Under the pieces are notes generated by a model, which had not been told where the DNA came from, did no database searches, and worked only from the letters and a program-made list of their open reading frames with translations. This document shows positions 1,711 to 24,828 of a stretch of DNA of 64,000 nt, in pieces; position 1 is the stretch's first letter; every line of letters starts with the position of its first letter. The stretch is from Microvirga ossetica (lineage in GTDB: Bacteria; Pseudomonadota; Alphaproteobacteria; Rhizobiales; Beijerinckiaceae), in assembly GCF_002741015.1 (NCBI RefSeq), contig NZ_CP016618.1:558001-622000 (forward strand), given 5' to 3'. A program made the position numbers and the translations under genes.

Positions 1711-1754
1711 GGTCCAATATATTGCTTTTGACCTTACGATTGGAAAAACATATC
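1711..1754 (-). promoter_or_regulatory. LysR-type promoter element, copy A (efflux operon)
   Basis: One of six gapless 44-bp copies in the window. On the plus strand it starts GGTCCAATATATTG, has TACGATT at element positions 25-31 and ends ATATC. GAT (28-30) and ATC (42-44) are separated by 11 bases, the T-N11-A geometry of LysR-type binding sites. Read toward the efflux genes, TATATT inside the palindromic AATATATT makes a plausible -10 box. Function as an operator is inferred. Confidence 0.7.
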
Positions 1755-2233
1755 GACTGCCTGAGTGTGTTTCGGCACCGCGGCTCAACCGCTGAAGGCC
1801 TGCAATTTAACGACCCTGCTGCATCAACCTTGGCGGCGAAAAGGAGAGCGGCAGCTGAGGAGCTCTCTTATTCCTTTCAAAGCTCCGCTGATGTCCAGCC
1901 GAAATCGACCTGCTGTACTTACTTACGCATTACTTGGCTGCCGCGAACTCTTTGCCAGTATCATCGCATCGGAAGCCAAGTACGATGAGACTATGTCCAG
2001 GCGCGAAGCGAGATCAGTCTCTTCGGTCGCAGCGATGTTCTGATGGGAAGGCGATCTCCATGTGTGGCAGCGCCGCGATAAAGGTGCCGCCCTTGCTGGA
2101 ACGCCAGCGCTGAGCGAAGCAAAGAACAGCTGTATTCGCTGGCTCAGCAGCACTTCTACCCGGAGCACTATGTTCTAAGATGCAATCACAGGTCAGATGA
2201 CCGGCAGCGTCTACAGATGGAGTCGAAGCTTTG
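1755..2233. other. No gene seen
   Basis: About 480 bases beside promoter element A. Short open frames on both strands have neither ribosome sites nor recognisable sequence. By analogy with copies B and E this flank may once have held the start of a LysR gene, but I could not align it convincingly. Confidence 0.5.
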
Positions 2234-2365
2234 TTAGAGAGAAGCCAGCAGAAGGCTTACACCAATCAATGCTACCATGGAGGCCACGAACCTAACGCTG
2301 GCTCGCATGAACTGAACGCTTAGGACAGCAGCCGTGTCATCGGCTGAAATGGCTTTCTGAGACAT
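2234..2365 (-). CDS. Small membrane protein, 43 aa, hypothetical
   Basis: A short frame with GGAG 11 bases before its ATG. The product starts MSQKAISADD and ends in one hydrophobic segment (about residues 27-43, rich in V, A, L, I), as expected for a single-pass or tail-anchored inner-membrane peptide. I do not recognise a family. The frame stays open upstream but without a ribosome site. It lies between the transglutaminase-like gene and a gene-free stretch, so context gives no function. It may be a chance frame. Confidence 0.35.
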   Translation of the reverse strand: MSQKAISADDTAAVLSVQFMRASVRFVASMVALIGVSLLLASL

Positions 2366-2428
2366 GGCAAACACTACTCCAGATGTGTGGCGCAACGGAT
2401 GCTGGCCGAACATGCCCATGTGTATATG

Positions 2429-3175
2429 CTAACGGCGCCGCAAGGGTCGGTTCTGCCGACCTGATCCCACGCTCAGGACTCTGGCGACTTGCGAAGGCGG
2501 CGCCAGCAAGCTGACCCAAGCAGGCCCGTCCTGGCCCTCGCGCTTGACAAAGCGATAGCCCGTCTCCCGCCAAGGCAGGACCGCCGAGGTCTTATTGTCC
2601 AGGACCAGGTCGCCTGCGGTGGTGCGCACCATCAGGACCGCATGGCCTTCACCGTTCTGATCGAGAACCACCGCCATCCGCAGTACGCGACGGGGCAGAC
2701 CGCTTTCGATGAGGCGCTTGCGCTTGACGAGTTGAAAATCCTCGCAATCCCCATAACCATCGTCCGGGTAACTCCAACGATCCTCCGCACCCCAATGCAC
2801 CATGTCGGTCATTGGCTTGATGGCCGCATTCACCTGCTCCGAAGTTGCCCGAAGTAGAGCCAGGACCTTGGTCGTGAGCTGAACTTCAGAGGACTCGGAG
2901 AGATCGACCGAGCACTCGTTGGGCATCCGTCGGCAGAAGGCGAGCCCGGCTGGCGTCGGACCGTCCGGGCCGGTCACCTGCGCAAAGGCCGGACTGGCCG
3001 GTTTTGGGACACCAGGACCTACGGACGTCAGCGCCGTCGTGTATGGCATCCGGGGGGCGGCTCCGTCGGCGCGGGCTGGGCTCGGCTGAAGGTTCACAAG
3101 GTGCAGAAACAGAGTGATCAGGACGACACCCTTCCAGGGGCGGGCCCAGCCGCGTCTGATCGCTACCGGGCTCAT
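2429..3175 (-). CDS. Transglutaminase-like cysteine proteinase (BTLCP family)
   Basis: A 248-residue exported protein of the bacterial transglutaminase-like cysteine proteinase family (PF06035). An N-terminal hydrophobic segment (residues 16-36, ending ARA) should be a signal peptide. The catalytic triad is visible: Cys in YGDCEDFQ, His in GHAVLMV and Asp in LVLDNK. In other proteobacteria such proteins process periplasmic or surface targets, LapG acting on adhesins being the best studied; whether this one does so is unknown, and no LapD-like partner is present. The ATG overlaps the stop of the small upstream gene by 4 bp, so the two form one transcription unit. The C-terminus is basic (RQNRPLRRR). 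Confidence 0.9.
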   Translation of the reverse strand: MSPVAIRRGWARPWKGVVLITLFLHLVNLQPSPARADGAAPRMPYTTALTSVGPGVPKPASPAFAQVTGPDGPTPAGLAFCRRMPNECSVDLSESSEVQLTTKVLALLRATSEQVNAAIKPMTDMVHWGAEDRWSYPDDGYGDCEDFQLVKRKRLIESGLPRRVLRMAVVLDQNGEGHAVLMVRTTAGDLVLDNKTSAVLPWRETGYRFVKREGQDGPAWVSLLAPPSQVARVLSVGSGRQNRPLRRR

Positions 3176-3765: not shown

Positions 3766-4155
3766 TCAACGATCTAGTCCCTGCCGACCATTCGTCGGGA
3801 ACATGCCGCGCACAGGGGCCGCCCGATCCCCGACGTGGACTTGGCCGGTCACAGAGGATGCCGCATCCGAGCACTGGAACAGAACCGGTCCAGCTATTTC
3901 TTCCCGCTGCGCCGAGCAGCCGATTGGCACCGCCGCCCGCAAGGGCAACGCAAGTGCAGGATCGCTCGTTATGTCCGCAGTCCTCGGAGTCTCGACCCAG
4001 CTGGGGGCAAGCGCATTGAACTGGCCGTTTGCAACCGGTTCGATGCCGACCCCGGGCATTCGTAACGCGGGAAAGATCGGTGAAGAATGCGCTGTGATCC
4101 CAGACAAATGGCCTCGTGAACTCGCTCGCGCGAAGGAAAAACGATACGGCCTGAA
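3766..4155 (-). pseudogene. Gene debris, with a possible SDR C-terminal relic
   Basis: This stretch continues the frame of the glutamate synthase relic to its right but no longer resembles it. Near its left end it reads CSDAASSVTGQVHVGDR, which recalls the SDR C-terminal pattern of SDAAS-V-TGQ followed by VDGG. I read it as a decayed piece of an SDR gene joined to unrelated DNA. The rest (FRPYRFSF to SQREEI) is unrecognised. The bases from 3421 to 3765 contain no gene I can support. Confidence 0.35.
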
Positions 4156-4332
4156 GGCATGCTTTGCCTGGATCATGTCATAGATGCCGAGCAGGGAGAG
4201 CAGAGCGAAGGCCGCAGCCAGGGTCAGGCTGGCGGGCTGCTGAACGAGCGAGAAGGTGGCGCTCATCAGAAGGACGCAGCCCGCCAAAGTGGCGTAGCGG
4301 CTGACAACGGAAAAGTTTTGCATTCTGCGCAT
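4156..4332 (-). pseudogene. 5' relic of FMN-dependent glutamate synthase-like gene
   Basis: The 59 codons starting MRRMQNFSVV match the start of the intact gene at 21793-23415 (MRRMHNLSLA) closely, including the two hydrophobic segments and LLSLLGIYDM. Homology stops at QAKHA, after which the frame runs into unrelated sequence. The bases just before the ATG also match the citrate synthase / glutamate synthase spacer at 23416-23440. It is therefore the remnant of a duplicated citrate synthase - glutamate synthase operon. It could still make a short membrane peptide but not the enzyme. Confidence 0.8.
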
Positions 4333-4360
4333 GGCTTTGTGTCTCTGCCGGGGCGTTGCT

Positions 4361-4486
4361 TCAGCCCCGCTGGATCCCGGTCTGGGCATAGAGCTTGGAG
4401 ATGTCGACGACGCTCGGGCCGATGGTGCCTTCTTTGACCGGCTGTTCCTCGGGCTCGTTATCGACTGTGAGTGTGCTGGAGGTCAT
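4361..4486 (-). pseudogene. Citrate synthase relic: 41-codon internal-deletion mini-frame
   Basis: The frame starts MTSSTLTVDN and follows citrate synthase (23440-24732) to KLYAQTG at about codon 38. It then jumps to a short end, IQRG plus stop, that resembles the natural citrate synthase end ARRG plus stop. Almost all of the gene has thus been deleted, leaving an intact start, 5' leader (ACAGGATGGATTG) and stop. The true ATG-position codon two codons upstream is ACG here. It sits directly under promoter element B. Whether the 41-residue peptide is made is unknown. Confidence 0.8.
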
Positions 4487-4543
4487 GAGCGTCAATCCAT
4501 CCTGTCCGAAGGAATGGATACGGATAAATGTCGACTTGGCCAG

Positions 4544-4587
4544 CGTCCAATATATTGTTTTGCAAATCATAATATCAAAAGCATATC
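4544..4587 (-). promoter_or_regulatory. LysR-type promoter element, copy B (citrate synthase relic)
   Basis: Second copy of the 44-bp element: GTCCAATATATTG at the start, AAT-N11-ATC instead of GAT-N11-ATC, and CATATC at the end. It lies ahead of the citrate synthase relic on the minus strand. On the plus strand an ATG follows one base after the box, exactly as in the intact LysR locus. Confidence 0.65.
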
Positions 4588-4588
4588 A

Positions 4589-4621
4589 ATGGACCTCTAT
4601 CAGGTCCGGCACTTGGAATCT
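4589..4621 (+). pseudogene. LysR gene 5' relic
   Basis: The bases after element B read ATGGACCTCTATCAGGTCC, giving MDLYQVRHL. At the same place the intact LysR gene at 16741 gives MDLRQLRYF. Nucleotide agreement is high for about 11 codons and then disappears. I read this as the decayed start of a LysR gene that was once divergent from the citrate synthase copy. Confidence 0.55.
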
Positions 4622-5143
4622 ACGACCCTAGAACCGCTCGTTCGGAGGCGGATTAAAAACTGCTCCCAAAGGATAGAAGAGATGGCTCCCGCGTCTGGTC
4701 CGCTTGGTTGCACTTGTACAGCAACTGTCGAGTGCAATCGTACGTCTGGCCGTTTAATGCCGTTTTCTGGTGGTTGGGGACAGCCATGCCTTAGCGCCAT
4801 AGCCGTCTGCTTACAATCTGTTAAAGGCGAAAGCACTTCGCTAGCAGGCGCCTATGAACGCTATCGACGCCACACGGTGCAAAAGTCAGGGTTCTTCATG
4901 GAAGCGAAAGGGTAGCACTTTCCGTGATCACGCAACGCTGCGTATCTCACCGGTGCCGGACGAATTGGAAGTATAGCTCATCCTAAACGAAGGCATTACC
5001 CACTCAACCAATCCTGATCACCATGACACCCATGAAGACAATCGAACTTCACCTGAGGAACCTCTAGCTTCTGAGCATCACAATGCTCTCCAGAGCAACT
5101 TCGCCGACCGATGTCGTCGAAGCAGGCCTTGCAGGAAGATGCT
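4622..5143. other. No gene seen
   Basis: The LysR-like frame stays open for roughly a hundred codons beyond its recognisable start, but its sequence no longer resembles a regulator. No other frame has a ribosome site or recognisable content. Confidence 0.5.
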
Positions 5144-5560
5144 ATGGACCCAGTGCTGAAGGATTGCATCCTGATCGTGGACGGCGACCTTAACTTTCGC
5201 GAGCGTCTTGCGCAGGAGCTTCGTTCCGCGAGCTACAAGGTTCTCACGGCCGGTACAGGCGAGGAAGCCTTTGTCATCTTGACGCGCCGGTCCCACCAAA
5301 TCGGCTGGTTCTACAGCCGTGCCGTTCTTGCCGGCCTAATCGACGGCTGGATCTTGGCAGATGAGTATCGCGAGATCCATCCCGACCGCCCCGCGGTTAT
5401 CTCTGCGCACGATGCGCGGTTTACCGCTCGCGGCGACATTGTTCTGAGAGAACCTACAGTAGATGTGGCTTCGGAAACAATGCGGGACGTCATCGAGTCG
5501 CTGCGGCAGGGTCAGCAAACCATGGCTGCGGGGCTGAGCGGGCGTCGCCACGCCGCTTAA
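5144..5560 (+). CDS. Degenerate receiver-domain protein
   Basis: A 138-residue stand-alone receiver (CheY-like) domain. The acidic start is kept in part (ILIVDGDLNFRERL), and the middle follows the rhizobial receiver pattern (LAGLIDGWILADEYREIHPDRPAV). At the position where this subfamily has F-T-D-I, however, it reads YSRA, so the phospho-acceptor Asp is replaced by Arg. The usual Lys near the end (LRKP) is Glu (LREP). Phosphorylation by a kinase is therefore unlikely; it would be a pseudo-receiver or a decaying gene. I use the ATG at 5144 because AGGAAG precedes it; another ATG lies at 5111. Two normal receivers follow within 2 kb. Confidence 0.75.
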   Translation: MDPVLKDCILIVDGDLNFRERLAQELRSASYKVLTAGTGEEAFVILTRRSHQIGWFYSRAVLAGLIDGWILADEYREIHPDRPAVISAHDARFTARGDIVLREPTVDVASETMRDVIESLRQGQQTMAAGLSGRRHAA

Positions 5561-5633
5561 TCCTGCGGACTCTACCCGTCTGTCGCTCTTCAGCGCCACC
5601 CGGATCATTGCACGACAGCTATGGAGCCATCCA

Positions 5634-5987: not shown

Positions 5988-6388
5988 AGCGCCGTAAGTC
6001 AGGTAATGCTTGTGGGTTTCTATATCGAGCTCGGATGCTCCTTTTCCAACGATCAACAAGCTGGCGCGAGAAACCGCTTTCCGCAACTGGCTCATCTCAG
6101 ACAGGACTCCGCGTGATGTCTCGAGGTATGAGATCTATATAGTGACGTTGGCTTGCGTGAGTGCCGGTCCGACGAGAAAAGAACGCTGCCGAGTATCCCT
6201 GGCGACGCTCAATATGTCATCACCTGTAACCTCGAAAACCCGGTTCGAAGAGGGCGGTAGAATTCGGGAGCTGTCGAAATTGCCCTCTGGTAAACCTATG
6301 TATGATTACTTCTTTCCCGGTCGAGGCGTATTTATCTACTATTCAAGGATTCATAATCGTAGCTTGCGTACCCCTCGCACGCAGAAGG
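5988..6388. other. No gene seen
   Basis: Four hundred bases between a hypothetical gene and a receiver gene. An open plus-strand frame covers part of it but has no ribosome site or recognisable sequence, and its composition is more AT-rich than the neighbours. It probably holds the promoter of the receiver gene. Confidence 0.45.
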
Positions 6389-6790
6389 ATGGGTCGCGTG
6401 CAAAATGCTCCAGGCGTTTCAGTTGTCGATGATGATGACGCTGTCCGAGAGGCAATCAGGAGCCTCCTGAGAGCACTCGGATACATTGTATACACGTTTG
6501 CGTCAGCGGAGGATTACTTGCAATCGCCTCTCCTGAACGATACCTCATGTCTGGTTACAGATATTCATATGCCAGGGATGAACGGATTTGAACTGCATCA
6601 CCGCCTCGTGAGCAAGGGGCTGCGCATGCCTGTAATCTTCATGACGGCTTTTCCGGACGAGACGGTCTATAGGCTTGCCAAGGATGCCGGAGCCGTCAGT
6701 TTGCTCAGCAAACCATTCGATGAACAAACCCTGGTTAGCTGTCTTGATCGAGCTCTGACTGGAAGGGGCGGGGATATTACCGCAAGCTAA
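6389..6790 (+). CDS. Single-domain response regulator (FixJ-type receiver)
   Basis: About 133 residues forming one receiver domain without an output domain. The acidic pocket is VVDDDD (residues 12-17), the phospho-acceptor is Asp58 in LVTDIHMPGMNG, the conserved Thr is in IFMTAF, and the Lys is in LLSKPF. It resembles the receiver half of FixJ/NodW regulators. Such proteins act as phosphate relays or sinks for a hybrid or HWE kinase. The start is uncertain: AGAAGG touches the ATG at 6389, so the GTG at 6398 (spacing 9) may be the true start. The FixJ-type gene follows 255 bp downstream. A sensor kinase of the right class sits at 15078-16643, but partnership is only a guess. Confidence 0.85.
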   Translation: MGRVQNAPGVSVVDDDDAVREAIRSLLRALGYIVYTFASAEDYLQSPLLNDTSCLVTDIHMPGMNGFELHHRLVSKGLRMPVIFMTAFPDETVYRLAKDAGAVSLLSKPFDEQTLVSCLDRALTGRGGDITAS

Positions 6791-7045
6791 GCTAAGCAGT
6801 TCATCACGGGAGTGAGCTTGGGCCAGCTGATCGAGGAGGGACAATTTATATGCAGCGACCAGCCAAACGGCAGAAATCATTCGATACATTATTCGCTGTC
6901 CTCCTCGTGTACTGCCGAGCTTGAGGGGGCTCGGAAGTGACGACTGCAAGGATGAACCTGCTACTCTGGACCGTTTGGCTCTCCTCTAGTGCCTTTTTAG
7001 GTGTTATTCTGGGCAGTGATCGTTTGGTAGTCGGACGGGAACCTC

Positions 7046-7720
7046 ATGCCGAGCCGTTCAACACCACCGCCGGTGGCTGCAGAGGAGTCGATCATCTTCA
7101 TCGTCGATGATGATGAATCCCTGCGGAATGCGCTCGGAAGCCTGTTTCGCTCAGTCGGATTCAAAGTCGGCATGTTCGGGTCTGCAGCCGAATTGCTGGA
7201 ACACAAGTTTCCCGACATACCAAGCTGCCTGGTGCTCGACGTTAGATTGCCGCGGCTGAGCGGTCTCGACTTTCAAACTGAATTGGCCAAAGCGAACATT
7301 CATATTCCGATTATTTTCATGACGGGTCATGGCGATATCCCGATGTCGGTAAGGGCCATGAAGGCTGGAGCCGTTGATTTCTTGGCCAAGCCTTTCCGCG
7401 ATCAAGATATGCTGGATGCCGTGACGTTAGCACTAGAGCGAGACCGCCAACGACGGCAATCGGATAAACAGCTTTCAGATGTGCGCGCTAAATTCGATAC
7501 TCTCACGCAACGCGAGCGGGAGGTGATGAGTCTTGTCGCGACGGGTCTGATGAACAAGCAAATCGCAGGGGAACTGGGGCTCAGCGAAATCACCGTCAAA
7601 ATTCATCGCGGCCAAGCCATGCGCAAAATGGGCGCGCGCTCGCTGCCGGATTTGGTAAGAATGGCAGAACTGCTCGGAGTCTACCCAGGTCAAAGCAGGT
7701 CTCGATCAGAGACGGGCTGA
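7046..7720 (+). CDS. FixJ/NodW-family response regulator with LuxR-type HTH
   Basis: A full-length (224 aa) two-domain regulator. The receiver has VDDDESL at residues 20-26, phospho-acceptor Asp65 in LVLDVRLP, Thr in IFMTGHGD and Lys in FLAKPF. A linker of about 20 residues follows, then a LuxR/FixJ helix-turn-helix (LTQREREVMSLVATG, NKQIAGELGLSEITVK). Phosphorylation would allow dimerisation and promoter binding. GGACGGGA precedes the ATG. No histidine kinase is adjacent, so it is an orphan regulator whose partner must lie elsewhere. FixJ itself controls oxygen-responsive genes, but close relatives serve other inputs, so I give no gene symbol. Confidence 0.92.
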   Translation: MPSRSTPPPVAAEESIIFIVDDDESLRNALGSLFRSVGFKVGMFGSAAELLEHKFPDIPSCLVLDVRLPRLSGLDFQTELAKANIHIPIIFMTGHGDIPMSVRAMKAGAVDFLAKPFRDQDMLDAVTLALERDRQRRQSDKQLSDVRAKFDTLTQREREVMSLVATGLMNKQIAGELGLSEITVKIHRGQAMRKMGARSLPDLVRMAELLGVYPGQSRSRSETG

Positions 7721-8056: not shown

Positions 8057-8100
8057 GATATGTTTTTCCAATCGTAGGGCAAGAAACAAGATATTGGACC
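8057..8100 (+). promoter_or_regulatory. LysR-type promoter element, copy C (outer-membrane barrel)
   Basis: This copy is inverted relative to the other five, and its target gene is inverted as well. Its reverse complement starts GGTCCAATATCTTG, has TACGATT at positions 25-31 and ends CATATC; positions 25-44 are identical to copy A. GAT-N11-ATC is intact. It lies 104 bp before the outer-membrane barrel ATG, so orientation relative to the gene is conserved even though the strand is flipped. Confidence 0.7.
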
Positions 8101-8203: not shown

Positions 8204-8881
8204 ATGAGAACGGGGCTCAACGCTCACCTCGCCGCCCTGGCTGTCGCGACCGCCCTTGGAACAGCGGCCCACGCGGCCGACCTGCCCTCCCGCTTCGCTC
8301 CGCCACCGGTCGCGGCGGCTGTTCCCGTCTTCACCTGGACGGGATTCTACGTTGGTGTGAACGCCGGCTATGGCTGGAACACCAATGACGATGACGTGGT
8401 GATCAACGGAACGGCGTTCGAAGTCGACGACGAGGGCGGCTTCGTCGGCGGCGCTCAGATCGGCTACAACTACCAGATCGGCTCCTTCGTGGTCGGCCTG
8501 GAGACGGACATCCAGTACGCCGACATCGGGGGCGACACCACCCTTCCTGGTCTCGACAGCCACGACGATGACGACAACTGGTTTGGGACCGTGCGCGGCC
8601 GCGCCGGCTACGCCTTCGATCGGGCGCTGATCTATGCCACCGGCGGTCTGGCGTACGGCAAGATCAGCAATGGATTCAGCAATTCGGACGACACGAACGT
8701 TGGCTGGACCCTTGGTGCCGGTGTCGAGTATGCCTTCACCAACAATCTGACCGCCAAGGTCGAAGGTCTGTACGTCAACCTCGAACAGGACGACGACGAC
8801 GTTCCCAACATCAGCGGCAAGGATGAAACTGAATTCGGTGTGATCCGCGCTGGTCTGAACTACAAGTTCACCACCTACTGA
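8204..8881 (+). CDS. Outer-membrane beta-barrel protein (Omp25/OmpA-like porin family)
   Basis: A 225-residue outer-membrane barrel typical of Hyphomicrobiales. A signal peptide ends AAHA (about residue 24) and is followed by ADLPSR, a common motif of mature Omp25-type proteins. Alternating beta-strands follow, with conserved WTGFYVGVNAGYGW near the start, GGAQIGYNYQ, and the C-terminal GLNYKFTTY ending in an aromatic residue as needed for barrel assembly. Loops are rich in Asp (DDDD), possibly metal-binding. It is monocistronic: AAAGGATAAGA precedes the ATG, a rho-independent terminator follows, and promoter element C lies upstream. A second gene of this kind survives only as 3' fragments at 46269 and 60313. 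Confidence 0.93.
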   Translation: MRTGLNAHLAALAVATALGTAAHAADLPSRFAPPPVAAAVPVFTWTGFYVGVNAGYGWNTNDDDVVINGTAFEVDDEGGFVGGAQIGYNYQIGSFVVGLETDIQYADIGGDTTLPGLDSHDDDDNWFGTVRGRAGYAFDRALIYATGGLAYGKISNGFSNSDDTNVGWTLGAGVEYAFTNNLTAKVEGLYVNLEQDDDDVPNISGKDETEFGVIRAGLNYKFTTY

Positions 8882-9045: not shown

Positions 9046-9309
9046 ATGCGCTGCTATTTCCATCTTTCAAATGACCGGGAACTCTTGGCCGATCCATACG
9101 GCATCGGGGTTACAGACCTCACGATGGCGCATGCCGAGGCTCTCCGAGTCATTGAAGAACTGCTGCAGGAAGATCCAGCGCTCGAGCAGGACTTGAGCGG
9201 CTGGAGCTTGCTTGTCGCAGACGGCGCTGGAAAGTCCCTCCTCTCACTTCCTCTCGCGGGATCGTTGCAGTCGAACGTGCCGAGGAGATTAACCTCGTGC
9301 TTGAATTAA
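9046..9309 (+). CDS. DUF6894-type small protein
   Basis: An 87-residue protein that starts MRCYFHLSND and continues LLADPYGIGV, then AHAEALRVIEELL. This is the pattern of the DUF6894 family common in Methylobacteriaceae and Bradyrhizobium (a Y-F-H strand, D-x-x-G, an Ala-rich helix, then a W-x-L-x-V-x-D strand; here WSLLVADGAG). Function is unknown. I start at 9046 because that gives the normal family length; upstream extensions do not fit the family. Its end lies near the start of the hydrolase lipoprotein gene. Confidence 0.7.
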   Translation: MRCYFHLSNDRELLADPYGIGVTDLTMAHAEALRVIEELLQEDPALEQDLSGWSLLVADGAGKSLLSLPLAGSLQSNVPRRLTSCLN

Positions 9310-9347
9310 GAACGCCTGCATCACCTGATCAGTCGAAGCAGCAAGTG

Positions 9348-15077: not shown

Positions 15078-16643
15078 TCATGATCGCGCCACACCCACTA
15101 AGGCCGCCTCAACCTCACCGCCGAGCTGACGGCTGAGCACTCGCTCCAGCAGCGTTGTTCCGAAGCCCTTGCGGTCCGGCACGGCCACGGGGGGGCCGCC
15201 TTGCTCCATCCATTCGAACCGGATCTTGCTCTTCTCGACGTCCGCGGCAGGCAAGCTCCATGTGACATGAACGCGTCCCTGCGGACTGGAAAGTGCTCCA
15301 TATTTCGCCGCGTTTGTCGTCAGCTCATGTACCGCCATCCCAACAGCCAGAGTGAGGTGGGAAGGCATGTCCAGGTCCGGCCCGGTCAGGATGCCGCGTG
15401 TGCCGGTCTGATCGTCATAAGGCTCGAGCTCACTGCGCAGAATATCCCGTAGCTGCACGCCCGCCATTTCGTTGTCGAACAAGAGTGTGTGGGTCTGTGC
15501 GAGGGACATGATCCTCTGGGTCAAGGAATCCCTGAAGTTCTGAATCGAGGGCGCGTTGCGGGCCGTGGAGTTCACCAAGGCCTGCACCGTGCTTAGTGTG
15601 TTCTTCACCCGGTGATGGAGCTCGCGCATGAGCAAGGCCTGCTGCTCCTCCAGACGCTTCTTCTCGCTCATGTCAGAGAACATGCCCAATGCACCCGAGA
15701 CCTGCCCCAACTCGTCACGCAGGGCGCTGGTGGCGGCCAAGACGGGAATGGCCGCACCGTCCTTACGCCGAAAGCGGATCTCGAACTGCTCGAATTCGCC
15801 TGCAAGATTGCGGCCAACCCGCTCGCGGTGGTTCGGCTCATCCTCGGGGAAGGTGAACTCCAGCGCCGAACGCCCGATCATCTCGTCCGGGGTACAGCCC
15901 AGCATGGCCGCCATGCGGGCATTCACGAACTGCGTCCGAGCATCCACGCCGATCAACCAGATCCCATCATTGGCGGTCTCGACAATGGTGCGGAACCGCG
16001 CCTCGCTGGCACGCAGGGCCTCTTCGACGAGCTTGCGGTCATGGATGTCGGTGCTTGTCCCAAACCAAGCTGTGATGGCTCCTTCGGCATTCCGAACCGG
16101 AATGGCCCGGGTAAGGAACCAGCGATACTCACCGTCATTGCGACGGATGCGGGTCTCAATTTCGAAGTTGCATCCGCTCCGCAGCGCGGCGGTCCATGCC
16201 TCCATGCAGCAGGCCTGATCATCGGGATGGAGCACCAACTCGGGCCAGCAGCGGACATTCTGTTCGGGTGTGATGCCACAGAAGCTGAACCATTGATCGT
16301 TGACGAAGGTAATCGTGCCGTCGGGAGCCGCGATCCAGACGATGGTTGGGATCATGTTGGCAAGGGTACGGAAACGAGCCTCGCTTTCCTCAAGGAAGTC
16401 GCCGTGCTTCCGGAGCTGGGTGATCGGGCTGTCACGAGAGAGCAGAATGCTTGTCTGGCCGTCGATATGGGCGATCTTCTCTTCCGTTGCTGCAGTCGAT
16501 GTGAAGCCCGGATCGGAAGTGAGCATCCCTGTCCGGTCATCGAGCTTTGAGGTGTCGATGACGCTCCGGCCGGTCAACCTTTCTTTAGCCGGTAGTCCGA
16601 CGAGCTTGTTGTCGACGGTGCGCGGGCGGGAGATCATGGGCAT
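15078..16643 (-). CDS. HWE-type PAS sensor histidine kinase with citrate-synthase-derived N-terminus
   Basis: A 521-residue chimera. Residues 1 to about 85 follow the N-terminus of the citrate synthase encoded at 23440-24732 (shared blocks [26 protein letters not shown]; about 57 of 86 identical by hand count). Two PAS domains follow (about 88-210 and 212-335), then an HWE/HisKA_2 phospho-acceptor region (ELHHRVKNTLSTVQALV) and an ATPase with HELTTNAAKYGALS, WMEQGGPPV and GFGTTLLERVL. The last strand of the ATPase is short (ends LVGVARS), so the C-terminus may be truncated. No membrane segments, so it is cytosolic. Start at the ATG at 16643 with AGGA upstream. Its promoter is element D, shared with the divergent LysR gene. 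Input signal and partner regulator are unknown. Confidence 0.9.
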   Translation of the reverse strand: MPMISRPRTVDNKLVGLPAKERLTGRSVIDTSKLDDRTGMLTSDPGFTSTAATEEKIAHIDGQTSILLSRDSPITQLRKHGDFLEESEARFRTLANMIPTIVWIAAPDGTITFVNDQWFSFCGITPEQNVRCWPELVLHPDDQACCMEAWTAALRSGCNFEIETRIRRNDGEYRWFLTRAIPVRNAEGAITAWFGTSTDIHDRKLVEEALRASEARFRTIVETANDGIWLIGVDARTQFVNARMAAMLGCTPDEMIGRSALEFTFPEDEPNHRERVGRNLAGEFEQFEIRFRRKDGAAIPVLAATSALRDELGQVSGALGMFSDMSEKKRLEEQQALLMRELHHRVKNTLSTVQALVNSTARNAPSIQNFRDSLTQRIMSLAQTHTLLFDNEMAGVQLRDILRSELEPYDDQTGTRGILTGPDLDMPSHLTLAVGMAVHELTTNAAKYGALSSPQGRVHVTWSLPAADVEKSKIRFEWMEQGGPPVAVPDRKGFGTTLLERVLSRQLGGEVEAALVGVARS

Positions 16644-16695
16644 CAATCTATCCTGTGCGAAGGCATGGATAGGGATTAGTTGCCCGTATGGCCCA

Positions 16696-16739
16696 GATCT
16701 AATATATTATTCTTAGCTTTACGATTAGAGAAACCTATC
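16696..16739 (-). promoter_or_regulatory. LysR-type promoter element, copy D (kinase / LysR divergent promoter)
   Basis: GATCTAATATATTA at the start, TACGATT at positions 25-31, CTATC at the end; GAT-N11-ATC is intact. The ATG of the LysR gene begins one base after the element, and the kinase lies on the other side. Because AATATATT is palindromic it could serve as a -10 box in both directions. A box this close to the LysR start would fit autoregulation (inference). Confidence 0.75.
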
Positions 16740-16740
16740 A

Positions 16741-17667
16741 ATGGATCTGCGCCAGCTCCGGTACTTCGTCGCGACCGCGGAGGAACTGCATTTTGGCCGG
16801 GCTGCGGAGCGGGTCCACATCGCGCAGCCGGCCTTGAGCATCCAGATCAAGGCCCTGGAGGACATGCTGGGTGTCCAGCTCCTCAGCCGGACCAACCGGG
16901 TGGTGACCCTGACAGAGGCGGGCCGCCTTTTCCTCAAGGAGGCCCGCCGCACCCTTGAACAGGCGCAGCATGCCGCCGTCGTGGCCCGTCGGGCCGGACG
17001 CGGCGAGATCGGTCGCATCGAAATCGGCTACTCCGCAGACACGTCTTATTCCGGGGTACTGTCAGGAGTCCTGCGGCAGTACAAGCGACGGGTTCCCGAC
17101 GTCGAACTCGGGCTCCACGAACTCCATCCGAGCACACAGATCGCACAGCTCCTGGAAGGTCGTATCCATATCGGGTTCATAGCCAACTTTGTTGACAGCC
17201 CTACCGGGAAGCTGCCGCCAGAACTGGATGCGATCCGCTTGGCGGAATGGCCGCTGAGGGTGGCGCTTCCAGCGGACCATCCTCTTGCGAAGCGGAGCCG
17301 AATTCCGCGAGAGGCACTCGCGGACGAACCGTTCATTGTCTACGTCGGATCAGACATTGAACAGGACCGCTCGTTGATCCAGATGGTGATCGGGTTCATG
17401 CCGCGTGTCGCATATGAAGTGCGGAGCGGGTTTTCTATCGTGAGCCTTGTCGGAGCCGGGTTGGGAGTGGCCATCGTTCCGTCGTCGGTCAGCTCGGTCA
17501 GCATCGGCGAGCACGTCGTCTACAGGCCCATCTCTGGCAACACGACGCAGGTCGGAACCGACGTCGTGTTCCGCCGGGACGCTGACGATCCAGCCGTGGT
17601 CAACTTCCTGGAGATCGTCCGGCCGGATCAGCATGATACCAAAGGAAAGCGACACCGGGGTGCCTGA
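16741..17667 (+). CDS. LysR-family transcriptional regulator
   Basis: A full-length (308 aa) LysR regulator. The N-terminal winged helix is canonical (MDLRQLRYFVATAEELHFGR, AAERVHIAQPALSIQIKALE), followed by the linker helix and a two-lobed effector domain with ALPADHPLAKRSRI and SIVSLVGAGLGVAIVPSS. The style is that of the CatR/BenM/CbnR branch, which senses aromatic or organic acids; the effector here is unknown. The gene is divergent from the chimeric sensor kinase and starts one base from a LysR-type box, so autoregulation is likely. It is the only LysR gene in the window and therefore the natural candidate regulator for the six 44-bp elements. Relics of a similar gene lie at 4589 and 24914, and possibly at 19243. 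Confidence 0.95.
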   Translation: MDLRQLRYFVATAEELHFGRAAERVHIAQPALSIQIKALEDMLGVQLLSRTNRVVTLTEAGRLFLKEARRTLEQAQHAAVVARRAGRGEIGRIEIGYSADTSYSGVLSGVLRQYKRRVPDVELGLHELHPSTQIAQLLEGRIHIGFIANFVDSPTGKLPPELDAIRLAEWPLRVALPADHPLAKRSRIPREALADEPFIVYVGSDIEQDRSLIQMVIGFMPRVAYEVRSGFSIVSLVGAGLGVAIVPSSVSSVSIGEHVVYRPISGNTTQVGTDVVFRRDADDPAVVNFLEIVRPDQHDTKGKRHRGA

Positions 17668-18415
17668 TGGGCTCTGAGAACCGATAGCAATCTGAGGGAT
17701 TGCAGAATGTTACTCATTCCCTATCGGCAGCTTCGAAGCAGGAAGGAGAGCGGCCTCGAGGAAGGCCCAAGCCCGCCGACTACTGTCGGTCTTGCGGAAA
17801 GCTACAGCAATGTGACTGGCCTTTGATTCTGATTTGTTACGGAACTGAAACTGAAGTAATGGAGATAGCGGCGACGCTCTGTCTCCGTCGGTGCACTGCC
17901 CGATAAGAGTTCTCAGCACGATTTTTCTTGGGCAAGCCATGCTCAGGATTGGCTGAGAGACCCGACACTCGATGGAGCGGTCTGGAGAGTTTCTCCACAG
18001 CTGAACCTTGACAGCAAATTATGCCAGACAGCCTGTTGGATGATACTGGGCGGAGACTGGTGGCGAGTATGGGAATGGGTTGCATCCTCGTCTCTCCCGT
18101 GCATCAGCCTATCGCGTCAGCAATTCCTGTAACACTCCAGTGTAGGAATACCTTTCCGCTCTGCGACCTGTCCGTTCGCTATGAGCACCGTGAGGACATC
18201 CATCCCGCCGTCACGACACTCGGATGCACTATCATCCGCTTCAACCAGTGCAGTTGGCTATATGAGATGCACTTGCTCCGCCGCAAAAAATTCCTATTGC
18301 CAAGGGATGTCCCACCTGTGTTGCAAAGGCCGCCCCGGTTCTGCGAGAACCGAGGCAGTCGCGAGCCAGTGAAGCCGCTGCTGCAAGCAAGGAACCGTGC
18401 ATCATTTCCTGTTTG
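17668..18415. other. No gene seen
   Basis: About 750 bases between the LysR gene and the glycine-rich gene, which converge. Open frames are short, unrecognisable and without ribosome sites. No clear terminator is seen after either gene. Confidence 0.5.
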
Positions 18416-19141
18416 TTAGCGGCATCGGTCGGTTGAGGACGAGGAGCGCTGATGAGAGGTTCCTGGGCTCGCGCCTCCACCAGAGTATCCGCTCCCGCTA
18501 TTATAATAGCTGCTTCCGTTGATATAGTATCCGTTGTTGTTATAGTAGCTGTTCGCGCTCGATGCGGCCGCAGTTCCAGTGGCGGCCCCCGCCGCATACG
18601 CCCCCCAATCGTAGGGATAATAGTAGCCGCTCCCATAGGATCCGTACCGGCCCCCAAAGGACCCGTACCGCCCACCATAGGATCCGTACCTGCCACCATA
18701 ATACGCGCCGGCAACGTCACCACCCCGGTTGACCGTGACGTTGCCGGAGCCGACCACGTTCCCAGAGCCCAAAGGACCGTGCGCCGCGACATTCCCGCCA
18801 CGAACGGGGGCCACCACGTTCCCGGAGCTCACGGGACCGTGTGCGACTCCTTTCCCGGCCCGTACGGGTGCCCCGAGATTCCTGGAACCGACACGACCAG
18901 GCGGCCCGAAATTCCTGCCACGAACGGGTGCCGCGACTTTTCCCGGTCTGACAGGGCCGCGGATTGCGCCGCTGCTTGGTGGGCCGGGTGGGCGACCTCT
19001 CATCATTGGACCAGCCATCGGCGGACGTGGAAAGCCGCCCATCGGTGGGCCGCCCATTGGCGGGCCTGGAAAGGCAACGGCCATATCCGTCGCTGCGGTT
19101 ACGGCAAGAAGACCCGCGAAAACCCGGATCAGATGCTTCAT
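18416..19141 (-). CDS. Secreted Gly/Ser/Tyr-rich repetitive protein
   Basis: A 241-residue low-complexity protein with AAAGGAGG upstream of its ATG. A signal peptide ends MAVA near residue 23. The mature part has a Pro/Gly/Met-rich segment (GPPMGG repeats), a Gly/Val/Arg segment with repeated PVR-G and GSGNVV units, a run of YGGRYGS-type repeats, an Ala-rich hydrophobic patch (YAAGAATGTAAASSA) that could insert in a membrane, and an Asn/Tyr/Ser tail ending TDRCR. It is paralogous to the protein at 20246-20848. The repeats explain why all frames look open here. It is likely an extracellular or envelope protein of disordered structure; function unknown. Promoter element E lies just upstream. 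Confidence 0.8.
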   Translation of the reverse strand: MKHLIRVFAGLLAVTAATDMAVAFPGPPMGGPPMGGFPRPPMAGPMMRGRPPGPPSSGAIRGPVRPGKVAAPVRGRNFGPPGRVGSRNLGAPVRAGKGVAHGPVSSGNVVAPVRGGNVAAHGPLGSGNVVGSGNVTVNRGGDVAGAYYGGRYGSYGGRYGSFGGRYGSYGSGYYYPYDWGAYAAGAATGTAAASSANSYYNNNGYYINGSSYYNSGSGYSGGGASPGTSHQRSSSSTDRCR

Positions 19142-19197
19142 CACTGCCTCCTTTGCTATGCCAAGGCATGGAAAGAGTTAGGTGCCAGGTTAACATG

Positions 19198-19241
19198 GGT
19201 CCAATATATTGTTTTTTGACCTATAATATTCAGGACATATC
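19198..19241 (-). promoter_or_regulatory. LysR-type promoter element, copy E (glycine-rich protein)
   Basis: GGTCCAATATATTG at the start, TATAATA at positions 25-31, CATATC at the end; the box is AAT-N11-ATC. The leader between it and the glycine-rich gene also shares TCCATGCCTT-GCA with copies D and F. An ATG follows one base after the element on the plus strand. Confidence 0.65.
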
Positions 19242-19242
19242 A

Positions 19243-20245: not shown

Positions 20246-20848
20246 TTAGCGGCAGTTATCACTCGCGGACGACGAGCGCTGATGAGAGGTGCCCGACCTC
20301 GTGCTTCTGCCAAAGGATCCGCTCCCACTGCTCGAGTACCCATCGTCGTTGCTAGAGTAGCTGTTCCCACTGCTGTAGTAACCGCTTCCGCTGTTGTAGT
20401 AGTTGTTCGCGCTTGAGGCGGCCGCGGCTCCGGTGGCGGCCCCTGTCGCATAGGCCCAGTAGGGATTGTAGTAGCCGCTCCCATAGGATCCGGACCGGCC
20501 GCCATAGAACGCGCTGGCATGGACGTTGACGCCGCGGTTGACCGTGACGTTGCCGGAGCCAACCACGTTCCCGGAGCCCATGGGACCGTGCGCCGCGACA
20601 TTCCCGCCGCGAACGGGGGCCACCATGTTCCCCGATCCGACAGAGCCGCGGATTGCGCCGCCGTTAGGTGCGCCAGGCAGGCTGCCTCTCATCGGTGGGC
20701 CGCCGGTTGGCCCGCCCGATGGCGGGCGCGGCAAGCCACCCGACGGCGGACCCGGCAGCTGGGGCAGAGCCGGTTGGGCAACGGCCCCATCCGATGCTGC
20801 TGCGGTGGCGGCGAGAAGAGTCGCGAAAACCCATATCGAATGCTTCAT
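20246..20848 (-). CDS. Secreted Gly/Ser/Tyr-rich repetitive protein, paralogue
   Basis: A 200-residue paralogue of the protein at 18416-19141. It has the same start (MKH), a signal peptide ending AVAQ, a Pro/Gly-rich segment (PPSGG repeats) and the shared block NVVGSGNVTVNRG. There are fewer YGGR repeats, the same Ala-rich patch (YATGAATGAAAASSA), and a Ser/Tyr-rich tail ending SDNCR. Its ATG shares one base with the stop of the DUF2092 gene (TGATG), so the two are coupled; AGGAGGCAGTG precedes it. This copy has no 44-bp element of its own. Likely an envelope-associated disordered protein. Confidence 0.8.
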   Translation of the reverse strand: MKHSIWVFATLLAATAAASDGAVAQPALPQLPGPPSGGLPRPPSGGPTGGPPMRGSLPGAPNGGAIRGSVGSGNMVAPVRGGNVAAHGPMGSGNVVGSGNVTVNRGVNVHASAFYGGRSGSYGSGYYNPYWAYATGAATGAAAASSANNYYNSGSGYYSSGNSYSSNDDGYSSSGSGSFGRSTRSGTSHQRSSSASDNCR

Positions 20849-21645
20849 CACTGCCTCCTTGGCTGTCCCGGGGCAACGGCCGGCATCAACTCGACCTGTT
20901 TCGCGTCGGCGGGCGGCTGGAAGGCGAACACGGAGTCGGACGGGTGAGCTTTGCTGTCCCAGTTGGTGAATTCGGCGACGAAACGCGGCTGACCGGGCAG
21001 CAACCGGTAGGTGACGATCAACCGACGCGGGATGGCCGCGTTAGTGTTCTCGACCCACAATTCCATCTCGGTGCCGGCCATCTGATGAAAGAACAGATGC
21101 CGGCACTCGACGCCGTCGATGGTGGCTGTTCCAACTTGCCAGCCGGCGACCACCTTGCGCAGGAGCGATTGGTCCGGTGACACACCAAAGAAGTTGACCA
21201 GCGGAAAATCGATGTTGAGCCTGTCGAGCACCTCGGTCAGCGCTGCCGGGATGCCTCCCGGAGCGGGCATCACCGAATACACCTTGCGGTCAGGCGAGAA
21301 GAGGGACACCGTCTTGCCGTCGTAGAACAGGTCGTTGGCTCCGTCATCGCCGGTCACCTGGATTTTGAGCCGGTCGGGACGGCGCACGAGAACCTTCATC
21401 GTATGGAAGATGTGCAGCGGCTGTCCGGATTCGTTCAGGTAGACCCTGGAGGTTTTTGCCGAGAATGAGAGCTCCGAAGCCGAGAGCGTCTTGTTCAGCG
21501 TCGCGAGGGCGGCGTCGGCGTCCTCGCTGAGCGCCGGCCGGACCGGGAGAGCCGGTTCCTGGGCGTGCGCGGTCGGCACCGTGGCCAATCCCACAAGAGC
21601 GCCCAGCGCGCTCATGAACAAGCTGGGAAAAATCCTTCGTAACAT
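20848..21645 (-). CDS. DUF2092 periplasmic protein (LolA/LppX-like fold)
   Basis: A 265-residue exported protein of the DUF2092 family. A signal peptide ends AHA (about residue 28). The mature chain shows the family pattern: an Ala-rich helix (DADAALATLNKTL), the strand LSFSAKTSRVY, VLVRRPDRLKI, LFYDGKTVSLFSP, and a C-terminal block VECRHLFFHQ, ELWVEN and PRRLIVTY. Members are predicted to have the half-barrel fold of lipoprotein carriers such as LolA; no function is proven. It is translationally coupled to the downstream glycine-rich protein and may help export or chaperone it, which is inference. Confidence 0.85.
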   Translation of the reverse strand: MLRRIFPSLFMSALGALVGLATVPTAHAQEPALPVRPALSEDADAALATLNKTLSASELSFSAKTSRVYLNESGQPLHIFHTMKVLVRRPDRLKIQVTGDDGANDLFYDGKTVSLFSPDRKVYSVMPAPGGIPAALTEVLDRLNIDFPLVNFFGVSPDQSLLRKVVAGWQVGTATIDGVECRHLFFHQMAGTEMELWVENTNAAIPRRLIVTYRLLPGQPRFVAEFTNWDSKAHPSDSVFAFQPPADAKQVELMPAVAPGQPRRQ

Positions 21646-21792: not shown

Positions 21793-23415
21793 CTACGGTG
21801 CAGGAACCGAGAAGCGGTCCGGACGCGCCAAGGCCCAAGAGTTCGCATAAAAGGGATGGTCGTTCCTTTTGCTGAGCAGTTCGCCGGGCTCAAGGTAAGG
21901 AAGCAGCTGCGAGAACAGCTTGATCTCAGACGAACTGATCCGCCGGGCCAAATGATGGGGCTTCAAGTCGGAGGGATGGTTCAACCCCGCTGAGGCAAGA
22001 AGCTCGGCGAGAGCATGCATCGTGTTGCTGTGAAAGTTGGCGACCCGCTGTGCCTTGTCAGGAACAACGAGAGCGCGTTGCCGCAAGGGGTCCTGAGTCG
22101 CGACACCGGTCGGGCATTTGTTGGTGTGGCAGCTTTGTGCCTGTATGCAGCCGACAGCGAACATGAAGCCCCGGGCAGAATTGACCCAGTCGGCCCCAAT
22201 GCCAAGGGCACACGCAATATCGAATGCTGAGATGATCTTGCCGCTGACGCCGATCTTGATGCGGTCACGCAGCCCTGCTCCGACAAGAGTGTTGTGCACC
22301 AAGAGCAGGGCCTCACGCATAGGCACTCCTACGTGATCGGTGAACTCGAGTGGAGCTGCGCCCGTCCCGCCTTCCGCTCCATCAACGACGACAAAGTCTG
22401 GCACAATCCCGGTCTCAATCATCGCCTTTACGATTGCCATGAACTCCCAGGGGTGCCCGACAGCGAGTTTGAAACCAACGGGCTTCCCACCTGAGAGACT
22501 GCGGAGCTTCGCAACGAACAGCATCATCTCGACAGGTGTGCGGAAGCTGCTGTGGGCTGCGGGCGATATACATTCCTGGCCGACCGGGATCCCACGGGTC
22601 TGGGCAATTTCCGCACTCACCTTGTGCCCGGGCAGAATGCCGCCATGGCCCGGTTTAGCCCCCTGACTGAGCTTGATCTCGATCATCTTGACCTGATCGT
22701 CCGATGCCTGCTCCGAGAAGCGCTCTGGAGAGAAGCTGCCGTCCTCGTTGCGACAACCAAAGTACCCGCTGGCAATCTGCCAGATGAGGTTACCACCATA
22801 GCGTCGATGGTAGGGGCTGATACTCCCCTCGCCGGTATCGTGGGCGAATCCTCCGATCTTCGCGCCCTTGTTCAGGGCCATGATCGCATTGCCGCTGAGC
22901 GCCCCAAAGCTCATGGCCGAGATGTTGAGGATGGAACCCGAGTAGGGCATTACGCACTGATCGTTGCCAATGCTGATCCTGAATCCTGATGGGTCGGCCA
23001 CCGGTTTCGGACGGATGGAGTGACCGATGAACTCATGGCCATCTGAGTAGCCATCCACAAGGGTCCCGAAGGGGCGCTGGTCCGGCTCGTTCTTTGCCCG
23101 GGCATAGACCAAGGATCGTTGGGTTCTTGAGAACGGCAGCTTTTCGAACTCGGTCTCAAGGAGATATTGCCTCAGTTCCGGTCGTACGGCTTCGATCAGA
23201 AAGCGAACATGCCCGATAATCGGATAATTACGCGTAATTGCATGCTTTTCTTGGAGCATGTCGTAGATGCCGAGCAGGGAGAGCAGGCCGAAGGCCGCGG
23301 CCAGGGTCAGGCTGGCGGGCTGCAGAACGAGCCCGAAGGCGGCGCCCGTCAGGATGACGCAGCCGGCCAATGGGGCGTAGCGGCCGGCAAGGGAAAGGTT
23401 GTGCATTCTGCGCAT
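21793..23415 (-). CDS. FMN-binding glutamate synthase family protein
   Basis: A 540-residue protein of the family built on the FMN/Fe-S synthase domain of glutamate synthase (PF01645). The N-terminus has two hydrophobic segments (about residues 11-50), so it is membrane-attached. The catalytic domain shows MSFGALSGNAI, GGFAHDTGEG, KPGHGGILPG, VVDGAEGGTGAAP, and the cysteine motif SCHTNKCPTGVATQ that in relatives binds an Fe-S cluster. It lacks a glutaminase domain, so the nitrogen donor or even the reaction is open. It follows citrate synthase by 24 bp in the same operon, linking a 2-oxoglutarate/glutamate reaction to citrate entry. A 5' relic of a second copy lies at 4156-4332. Confidence 0.92.
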   Translation of the reverse strand: MRRMHNLSLAGRYAPLAGCVILTGAAFGLVLQPASLTLAAAFGLLSLLGIYDMLQEKHAITRNYPIIGHVRFLIEAVRPELRQYLLETEFEKLPFSRTQRSLVYARAKNEPDQRPFGTLVDGYSDGHEFIGHSIRPKPVADPSGFRISIGNDQCVMPYSGSILNISAMSFGALSGNAIMALNKGAKIGGFAHDTGEGSISPYHRRYGGNLIWQIASGYFGCRNEDGSFSPERFSEQASDDQVKMIEIKLSQGAKPGHGGILPGHKVSAEIAQTRGIPVGQECISPAAHSSFRTPVEMMLFVAKLRSLSGGKPVGFKLAVGHPWEFMAIVKAMIETGIVPDFVVVDGAEGGTGAAPLEFTDHVGVPMREALLLVHNTLVGAGLRDRIKIGVSGKIISAFDIACALGIGADWVNSARGFMFAVGCIQAQSCHTNKCPTGVATQDPLRQRALVVPDKAQRVANFHSNTMHALAELLASAGLNHPSDLKPHHLARRISSSEIKLFSQLLPYLEPGELLSKRNDHPFYANSWALARPDRFSVPAP

Positions 23416-23439
23416 GACTTTATCTCTGCGGAGCGTTTC

Positions 23440-24732
23440 TTAGCCGCGTCGGGCTTCGGTCACGTAGTCGCGCTCCGTCGCGCCGGTATAGAGCTGGCGC
23501 GGGCGGCCGATGCGCTGGGACGGGTCCTCGATCATCTCGCTCCACTGGGCGATCCAGCCGACCGTGCGGGCGAGCGCGAACAGCACCGTGAACATCGAGG
23601 TCGGGAAGCCCATCGCCTTCAGCGTGATGCCCGAATAGAAATCGATGTTCGGATAGAGCTTCTTCTCGACGAAGTAATCGTCCTTCAGCGCGATCTGCTC
23701 GAGCTCCACGGCCACATCGAGGAGCGGATCGTCCTTGATGCCGAGCTCGTTGAGCACCTCGTGGGTGGTCTTCTGCATGATGCGGGCGCGCGGGTCGTAG
23801 TTCTTGTAGACCCGGTGGCCGAAGCCCATGAGACGGAACGGGTCGTTCTTGTCCTTGGCCTTCGCGATGTATTCCGGAATGCGGTCGGGCGTTCCGATCT
23901 CCTCAAGCATCTTCAGCGCCGCTTCGTTGGCGCCGCCATGGGCAGGCCCCCACAGGCAGGCGATGCCGGCCGCGATGCAGGCGAAGGGGTTCGCGCCCGA
24001 GGATCCGGCGAGCCGCACCGTCGAGGTCGAGGCGTTCTGCTCGTGATCGGCGTGCAGAATGAAGATCCGGTCGAGCGCCCGCGAGAGCACCGGGTTGACC
24101 TTGTACTCTTCCGCCGGCACCGCGAAGCACATGCGCAGGAAGTTGGAGGTATAGTCCAGATCGTTCTGCGGATACACGAAGGGCTGGCCGATGGAGTACT
24201 TGTAGGCCATGGCGGCGAGCGTCGGCATCTTGGCGATCATGCGCATCGACGCGACCATGCGCTGGTGCGGATCGGAGATGTCGGTCGAGTCGTGATAGAA
24301 GGCCGAGAGTGCGCCGACGCAGGCCACCATGATCGCCATCGGATGCGCGTCGCGGCGGAAGCCGGTGAAGAACCGGTGCATCTGGTCGTGCACCATGGTG
24401 TGGCGCGTGACGCGATAGTCGAAATCAGCCTTCTGGGCTGCGGTCGGCAGCTCTCCGTAGAGGAGCAGATAGCAGGTCTCGAGGAAGTCGCCGTGCTCGG
24501 CGAGCTGGTCGATGGGATAGCCGCGATAGAGCAGGATGCCGGCGTCGCCATCGATATAGGTGATCTTCGACTCGGTGGCGGCCGTCGAGGTAAAGCCGGG
24601 ATCGTAGGTGAACATCCCGGTCTGGCCGTAGAGCTTGGAAATGTCGATGACGCTCGGGCCGATCGTGCCTTCTTTTACCGGCAGTTCCACGGACTTGTTG
24701 TCAACGGTGACTGTGCTGGAGGTCATGGGCAT
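23440..24732 (-). CDS. gltA: Citrate synthase (type II)
   Basis: A 430-residue citrate synthase, which condenses oxaloacetate and acetyl-CoA at the entry of the TCA cycle. The N-terminal strand domain ([32 protein letters not shown]) is that of proteobacterial hexameric, NADH-sensitive enzymes. The active site is complete: [26 protein letters not shown] and [15 protein letters not shown] use the ATG at 24732 because AGGATGG is at good spacing; ATG 24726 is possible. It is co-transcribed with the glutamate synthase-like gene, and promoter element F lies 53 bp upstream. The 5' leader and first 85 codons recur in the sensor kinase at 15078, and the first 38 codons in the relic at 4361. Confidence 0.96.
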
Positions 24733-24784
24733 CAATCCATCCTGTGCAAAGGTATGGAGAGGGGGTAGCAGCGGGCATGCTCCT

Positions 24785-24828
24785 GGTCTAATATATTGTC
24801 TTGCAGGTTATGATATCGAAACGATATC
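24785..24828 (-). promoter_or_regulatory. LysR-type promoter element, copy F (citrate synthase)
   Basis: GGTCTAATATATTG at the start, TATGATA at positions 25-31, GATATC at the end. GAT-N11-ATC is intact and is embedded in the near-palindrome GATATCGAAACGATATC. Citrate synthase lies on the minus side, and a LysR 3' relic lies within 200 bp on the plus side. Confidence 0.75.

Follow-up and report, generated by a model that had tools for sequence, protein, structure and literature searches.

A repeated LysR-type promoter element in Microvirga ossetica and traces of its probable spread by duplication

The operator-promoters of the LysR-type transcriptional regulators BenM, CatM, CbnR and AlsR have a divergent layout in common, with a T-N11-A site near position -65, a second site at -35 and the regulator gene pointing away from its target. 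To our knowledge, most LysR circuits act on one or few neighbouring operons. The element described here resembles the BenM, CatM, CbnR and AlsR systems in its layout but departs from them in its number, since 13 similar copies occur in one genome, on three contigs and before functionally unlike genes. Six of them, of 44 bp each, lie in the window that we analysed, a 64-kb stretch of Microvirga ossetica (positions 558001-622000 of contig C3 in the six-contig, 9.63-Mb genome G000), together with a lysR gene at 16741. Judging from sequence comparison, we consider it highly likely that each copy constitutes the control region of a promoter under LysR regulation and that the regulon grew partly by duplication of this module.

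New members of a regulon are commonly assumed to arise through point mutations that create new sites, and promoters are reportedly also copied or moved within prokaryotic genomes, to go by the titles of Matus-Garcia et al. 2012 and van Passel et al. 2014. As far as those titles allow a comparison, the present case is alike in that a promoter would have been copied within a genome, but the copied unit looks like a regulated operator-promoter with traces of the regulator gene alongside. In the same line, members appear to have been gained in one lineage, as in lineage-specific regulon expansion, although here the route is partly readable through what is left of the regulator gene and of a donor target beside some sites. 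This small regulon would preserve the debris of another route, in which an operator-promoter is copied with the end of its regulator gene, the 5' end of a housekeeping gene is captured and the remains decay, and it makes the one-step wiring of a gene to an existing regulator testable in one genome group. Searches of a literature library on its LysR, its target genes and Microvirga found no description of this regulon.

Copies of the element and layout of the putative promoter

An earlier note on the window had reported six ungapped copies of 44 bases, and alignment reproduces them exactly: A (1711..1754), B (4544..4587), D (16696..16739), E (19198..19241) and F (24785..24828) on the minus strand, and C (8057..8100), inverted, on the plus strand. 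A 14-base scan allowing up to three mismatches returned these six and one unrelated site in the window. Over the whole genome, the scan at no more than three mismatches gave 13 copies, against none for a reversed control pattern, and a profile search recovered the same 13 (E 3e-12 to 1e-7) and none further at E≤0.1; the profile had been built from 33 copies, including 12 of these 13, the thirteenth being identical to copy D. Nine copies lie on C3 (712 kb), three on C1 (5.84 Mb), all between 592 and 600 kb, and one on C4, so that the single regulon proposed before still looks like one, but not like a purely local one. The claim that the same side faces a gene holds, with 11 of the 13 before open frames and two (B and C3:465130) before citrate synthase relics. 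Among 25 distinct copies from three genomes of the genus, mean pairwise identity is 0.74 inside the element vs 0.28 at 61-120 bases upstream. When window positions 1-26500 were compared with themselves by blastn (E≤1e-3), the match between A and C spanned exactly the 44 bases (86%); B and F shared 215 bases ending at the edge of the element and D and F 320 bases, at 75-80% identity and with all or part of the element included, and copy E gave no match at that threshold.

The T-N11-A geometry noted earlier is borne out in full, as the T and the A (T3 and A15) never vary in the 33 aligned copies, within dyad halves GATAT...ATC/ATATC. In the 25 copies of the three same-genus genomes, conservation falls in blocks, GATAT (positions 0-4), AATC (13-16) and AAAACAATATATTGGACC (26-43), and the stretches between them vary in sequence but not in length. 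TTGGAC (37-42) overlaps the end of AATATATT, and in 21 of 37 copies CTA or TTA follows exactly 17 bases after it, every other spacing from 0 to 59 giving at most two. With the start site assumed seven bases past this -10 box (CTATCC), the dyad is centred at about -64 and the palindrome at about -38. Because a TTGGAC-N17-CTATCC-like promoter lies just downstream in most copies, AATATATT probably sits in the activation-site/-35 position and is not the -10 box of the targets, for which it had been taken. Such a layout of recognition and activation sites is the one described for LysR-type regulators in PMC8407307 and PMC6018408. The copies combine T-N11-A with dyad symmetry; 21 of the 37 have, by position, a recognition site near -65 and a second site at -35, and regulator and target diverge from a shared control region at copy D (lysR/kinase), in G105, G148 and G169 (lysR/RND adaptor) and in G169 (lysR/patatin).

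Within the window, the recognition site of copy A occupies 1738-1754, the palindrome or putative activation site 1715-1724, a -35 box TTGGAC 1712-1717 and a -10 box CTATCC 1689-1694. The corresponding stretches are 4571-4587, 4548-4557, 4545-4550 and 4522-4527 (TTATCC) in B; 16723-16739, 16700-16709, 16697-16702 (TTAGAT) and 16674-16679 (CTAATC) in D; 19225-19241, 19202-19211, 19199-19204 and 19176-19181 (CTAACT) in E; and 24812-24828, 24789-24798, 24786-24791 (TTAGAC) and 24763-24768 (CTACCC) in F. Copy C has its recognition site at 8057-8073, its activation site at 8087-8096 (one mismatch) and its -35 box at 8094-8099, with no clear -10 box at 17 bp. The 13 natural variants of one LysR promoter in a single genome should be useful for dissecting recognition and activation sites.

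Several points weigh against this layout. The 21 copies with a -10 box are not independent, several of their leaders being homologous, and the palindrome itself is not T-N11-A. The remaining 16 lack C/T-T-A at 17 bases: six of the group of outer-membrane protein, hydrolase and DUF892 genes, four before patatin genes, where TA stands at 18 bases rather than 17, one glycine-rich (offset by one), two NIPSNAP, two abutting lysR and one unassigned. The six of the first group have a -35 but no clear -10 box, and the -10 assignment is therefore not valid for every copy. These 16 copies also favour the older reading, in which AATATATT is the -10 box of the targets and the dyad covers their -35, as does the fact that TATATT is a good -10 match inside the most conserved block (0.95 mean identity at positions 30-39). 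We nevertheless judge that reading unlikely and rejected it in view of the downstream -35/-10 pair: conservation runs on into GGAC, as a -35 box would require, only the downstream promoter puts the dyad at the usual -65, and at copy D the sequence TTGCCC-17-TATATT can be read towards lysR. A -10 role of the palindrome is kept only for lysR, whose own -10 box, in the opposite direction, AATATATT may be; this would place the recognition site immediately downstream of the lysR transcription start, which fits autorepression.

The LysR at 16741 and its co-occurrence with the element

The start codon of lysR (16741..17667, plus strand) abuts copy D. Its product is a full LysR protein, with an N-terminal HTH_1 (Pfam, 2.7e-23) and a C-terminal LysR_substrate domain (1.8e-36), and a second copy at C1:594215 is 100% identical across residues 1-307; the next-best match in the genome reaches 32% (E 1.4e-27). 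Among curated models, AlsR, PRK09986 and HcaR come closest and GltC scores lower, all below cut-off, and CatM and BenM also match below theirs; an identity as the acetoin regulator AlsR is not supported, at 237 bits vs the cut-off of 430 bits of NCBIfam NF045775. The best matches of solved structure are 7w06, 1ixc, which we take to be CbnR, CatM and BenM. The whole block of kinase, element and lysR (15100-17668) is duplicated on C1 (L031:8574-11142) with 99.7% identity over 2569 bases. In a plasmid collection from which records near the window's own genome may be excluded, no match to the LysR was found at 1e-60.

A survey of 199 genomes of the family, in each of which at most 11 LysR candidates were scored, found a LysR of at least 79% identity in four, all four with the element, against seven genomes with the element at no more than two mismatches (hypergeometric p 5.5e-7 for the four, genomes treated as independent). 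The three further genomes with the pattern have a LysR of 39-40% within about 15-150 bases of it (G051 and G092) or of 37% at 1.8 kb (G087). Among 25 genomes of the genus, families of elements occur only in G000, G009 and G015, the last two with five and eight copies and a LysR at 93%. Eleven others gave no profile match; in the nine of them searched deeply the best LysR reached 41% (G007), and the other two had none at 1e-60. Moreover, in each of the six genomes that have an orthologue of this LysR, the element abuts lysR or sits upstream of it. Since LysR and element co-occur, and since the element adjoins or precedes lysR in these six genomes, the regulator of the elements is very probably the LysR at 16741, as the earlier note had supposed.

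Some observations weigh against this assignment. Weaker LysR proteins could have escaped among the candidates scored in the family genomes, G204 has a LysR of 47% and no element (up to five mismatches in the 14 kb around it), and profile R1 missed the elements of G051 and G092. The sites abutting lysR are degenerate in Bosea sp. Tri-44, and no element was found abutting lysR in G148 or G105. Single matches at no more than three mismatches turned up in G001, G016 and G023, of the same genus, and one to eight in five of 16 genomes of other families (G027, G031, G032, G035 and G038), not searched for LysR; with the reversed control matching as well in G023, G027, G032 and G021, we take them as noise at that threshold.

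We also looked at the best 80 of 578 LysR-encoding candidate stretches. Strong profile hits came from Microvirga and Bosea (eight in three loci), and the three weak ones (L178, L138 and L164) are all found upstream of lysR, no more than 60 bases from its start. In 19 of the 77 remaining, more distantly related loci (L113-L189), which are not independent because sets of close relatives occur among them, TCYAATATATWW stands 38-55 bases upstream of lysR, where its density would lead one to expect 0.06. The block of activation site and -35 box thus seems to be old and linked to this branch of LysR proteins, of which TCYAATATATWW may be a general landmark.

Two other origins of the pattern can be weighed on the same evidence. 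A small mobile element or mobile promoter, inserting alone and with no regulon behind it, would account for the 13 copies in a single genome, for A and C being alike only over 44 bp, and for the several copies without lysR or gltA remains. It seems to us improbable all the same: lysR or gltA sequence flanks many copies (see below), in no genome searched for both was a family of several copies found without the LysR gene, conservation is block-wise and, by eye, the consensus does not end in inverted repeats (target-site duplications were not searched for). About as improbable is the same regulon in the hands of another nearby protein, in spite of the regulator-like genes that can be made out by eye within the same 23 kb, for example at 6302-7720. 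T-N11-A is a LysR signature, the elements track and adjoin lysR across genomes, and the distant loci carry TCYAATATATWW before lysR far above expectation; we rejected this option on the co-occurrence of LysR and element.

From the copies, geometry, conservation, co-occurrence and relics, all directly computed, we infer binding, activation, autorepression, start sites and the involvement of an inducer as follows. The LysR from 16741, presumably as a tetramer, would bind the recognition site GATAT-N7-ATATC or GAT-N11-ATC, centred at about -64. With inducer present, it would contact the activation site over the palindrome CAATATATTG, centred at about -38, and RNA polymerase would be recruited to the -35 box TTGGAC and, in most copies, the CTATCC-like -10 box 17 bases on, which would activate the genes for efflux, envelope, kinase, patatin and citrate synthase. 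In the opposite direction, the recognition site just downstream of the candidate lysR -10 box AATATATT may serve autorepression.

Remains of lysR and gltA beside the copies

Across 12 orthologous pairs of copies, identical positions amount to 294/312 in the core blocks, 141/204 in the spacers, 257/360 in the leaders and 302/480 upstream, the pairs overlapping and the core blocks having been chosen from the same data. That the copies are a functionless recent segmental duplication, alike merely through youth, is hardly credible and was rejected on this block-wise conservation: B-F and D-F do share their 215 and 320 bases and D does have its near-identical twin on C1, but the flanks have diverged to background while the core blocks are 94% identical between orthologous copies, the spacers within the element diverge like leaders, and the RND adaptor, patatin and hydrolase targets recur in other genera.

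Relics of the neighbouring genes were sought by local alignment against Markov-resampled sequence, with 200 resamples each. On the far side of the element, the 5' end of lysR was detected, with 0/200 resamples attaining its score, at L031:8379, L031:15391, L032:10130, L033:9675, L085:1919, L085:5071 and L086:1934, and more weakly at E (1/200), B and F (2/200 each) and L085:170 (3/200). A relic of the lysR 3' end stands at F, L033 and L085:5071 (0/200), the one on the lysR side of copy F covering 24920..24983 on the plus strand (80% over 65 nt). On the near side, with copy F as reference, gltA 5' sequence was found at B, the four kinase copies, L032, L034, L083:10772, L085:170, L085:5071 and L081 of Bosea. 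These remains indicate that some of the copies, at the least, spread when lysR and gltA ends were duplicated and not by independent evolution of sites; the module would have been duplicated with the ends of its two neighbours, and these ends would later have decayed or become fused to new genes. Against this stand the copies C, L035, L083:14006, L087 and L088, where neither lysR nor gltA remains. Likewise, of the copies before efflux adaptors in the three genomes of the genus, L031:8379 alone gives 0/200 for lysR, against 10/200 (A and L085:14813) and 107/200 (L083:2900) for the others, and the patatin copy of G009 (L084) gives 11/200.

In Bosea sp. Tri-44 lysR is present twice, both times at 85% identity to the query; one copy diverges from an RND adaptor gene, and the other, which a contig end truncates, from a patatin gene. 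In Microvirga, the patatin copies L031:15391, L033 and L086 hold lysR remains instead of an intact lysR. We read this as a unit of lysR and operator that was copied, with later loss of the redundant lysR, an undated order of events taken from the remains. More tentatively, it is possible that the regulon as a whole grew via such disposable regulator copies, lysR and operator being copied beside new genes and the redundant lysR then decaying. Each copy would have delivered a working switch and its activator together, the switch later passing under the surviving lysR; Bosea sp. Tri-44, with its two lysR copies, would represent an early stage, and Microvirga a late one, with one kind of intact lysR and decayed ends at the patatin, glycine-rich, gltA and gltA-relic sites. 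The 5' end of citrate synthase would have been captured likewise, yielding a kinase with a relaxed N-terminus derived from that enzyme. Bosea sp. Tri-44 also has, at L081:473-826, a 117-aa frame with a gltA-derived start (50% over 44 aa), followed by hydrophobic sequence without Pfam match, which by its sequence is another capture of the citrate synthase start.

The citrate synthase gene before which copy F stands (23440..24735, minus strand) is a second copy, identical at 1270 of 1290 aligned bases (98.4%) to the chromosomal gltA at C1:5798224-5799507 (L036). Their identity breaks off sharply around the second codon and close to the stop, and the leader of the island gene belongs to the element family, which suggests that the island gltA was recently overwritten by gene conversion or underwent promoter exchange. 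Within the 8 kb examined around the chromosomal gltA there is no element (up to five mismatches). The link to central carbon entry drawn in the earlier note consequently applies to the second citrate synthase only. G009 was found to have a single gltA of this kind (97%). In G015, pieces of gltA on C72, C61, C22 and C26 hold residues up to about 38 or from about 401, and lie at contig starts in C72, C61 and C22; they look as if identical gltA cores had collapsed in assembly, which suggests repeated conversion there too.

The first 83 or so residues of the HWE kinase come from citrate synthase in G000 (two copies), G009 and G015; in the window, tblastn and substitution rates place this segment of about 83 codons at 16386..16634 (minus strand). 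Across the three genomes, the ratio of nonsynonymous to synonymous substitution (dN/dS) is 0.47-0.69 in the citrate-synthase-derived part, 0.16-0.27 in the remainder of the kinase and 0.11-0.15 in lysR. Because dN/dS there exceeds that of the rest of the kinase and of lysR, the part seems to have been carried along in promoter capture. We do not favour a functional domain, in view of these ratios and of a 23-residue in-frame gap in this part of the G009 kinase.

Genes downstream of the copies

In the window, copy A precedes a gene for an RND efflux periplasmic adaptor (HlyD/RND_mfp; 542..1681, minus strand; TIGR01730, 6.2e-66), and below copy B lie a relic of the citrate synthase N-terminus (4373..4486, minus; 79% of 38 aa) and, after it, what remains of the gene that follows gltA (4153-4332). 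Copy C faces an outer-membrane beta-barrel gene (8204..8881, plus), with an alpha/beta hydrolase (DUF900) gene further downstream (9297-10550). The target of copy D is the PAS-PAS-HWE sensor histidine kinase (15078..16646, minus), that of copy E a glycine-rich protein without Pfam match and with a signal-peptide-like start, as judged by eye (18416..19144, minus), and downstream of the gltA of copy F there is a gene for a glutamate-synthase-domain protein (21793..23415, minus).

Over the genome, the 13 copies precede RND adaptors (A and C1:592379), citrate synthase (F) and its relics (B and C3:465130), and, with lysR on the other side, the HWE kinase (D and its C1 twin). Downstream of C1:599391 and C3:530675 a patatin phospholipase is followed by an acetoacetate decarboxylase; C3:551269 stands before a 166-aa protein without Pfam match and the C4 copy before a DUF892/zinc-ribbon frame. 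A tally of 38 copies, from the six genomes with a LysR orthologue plus G051 and G092, gives RND adaptor 8, patatin 5, kinase 4, gltA relics 4, DUF900 hydrolase 3, two each of outer-membrane protein, glycine-rich protein, gltA, 166-aa protein, NIPSNAP and degenerate copies abutting lysR, and one each of DUF892 and unassigned. The predicted co-regulation would join RND pumps, lipid enzymes, an outer-membrane protein, a kinase and a second citrate synthase; a physiological theme of efflux, membrane lipids, outer membrane and overflow carbon is suggestive only.

Three minor observations concern the surroundings of the copies. Between B and C, two genes (6302-6790 and 7046-7720) look by eye like response regulators. 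The glycine-rich gene at 18416-19144 has a second, about 69% alike in DNA and also without Pfam match, at 20246-20851, with the element only at the first. In G148, the profile found an extra copy near lysR (L078:4002-4038), which precedes a gene for a protoglobin (globin-type)-diguanylate cyclase at 4129-5511.

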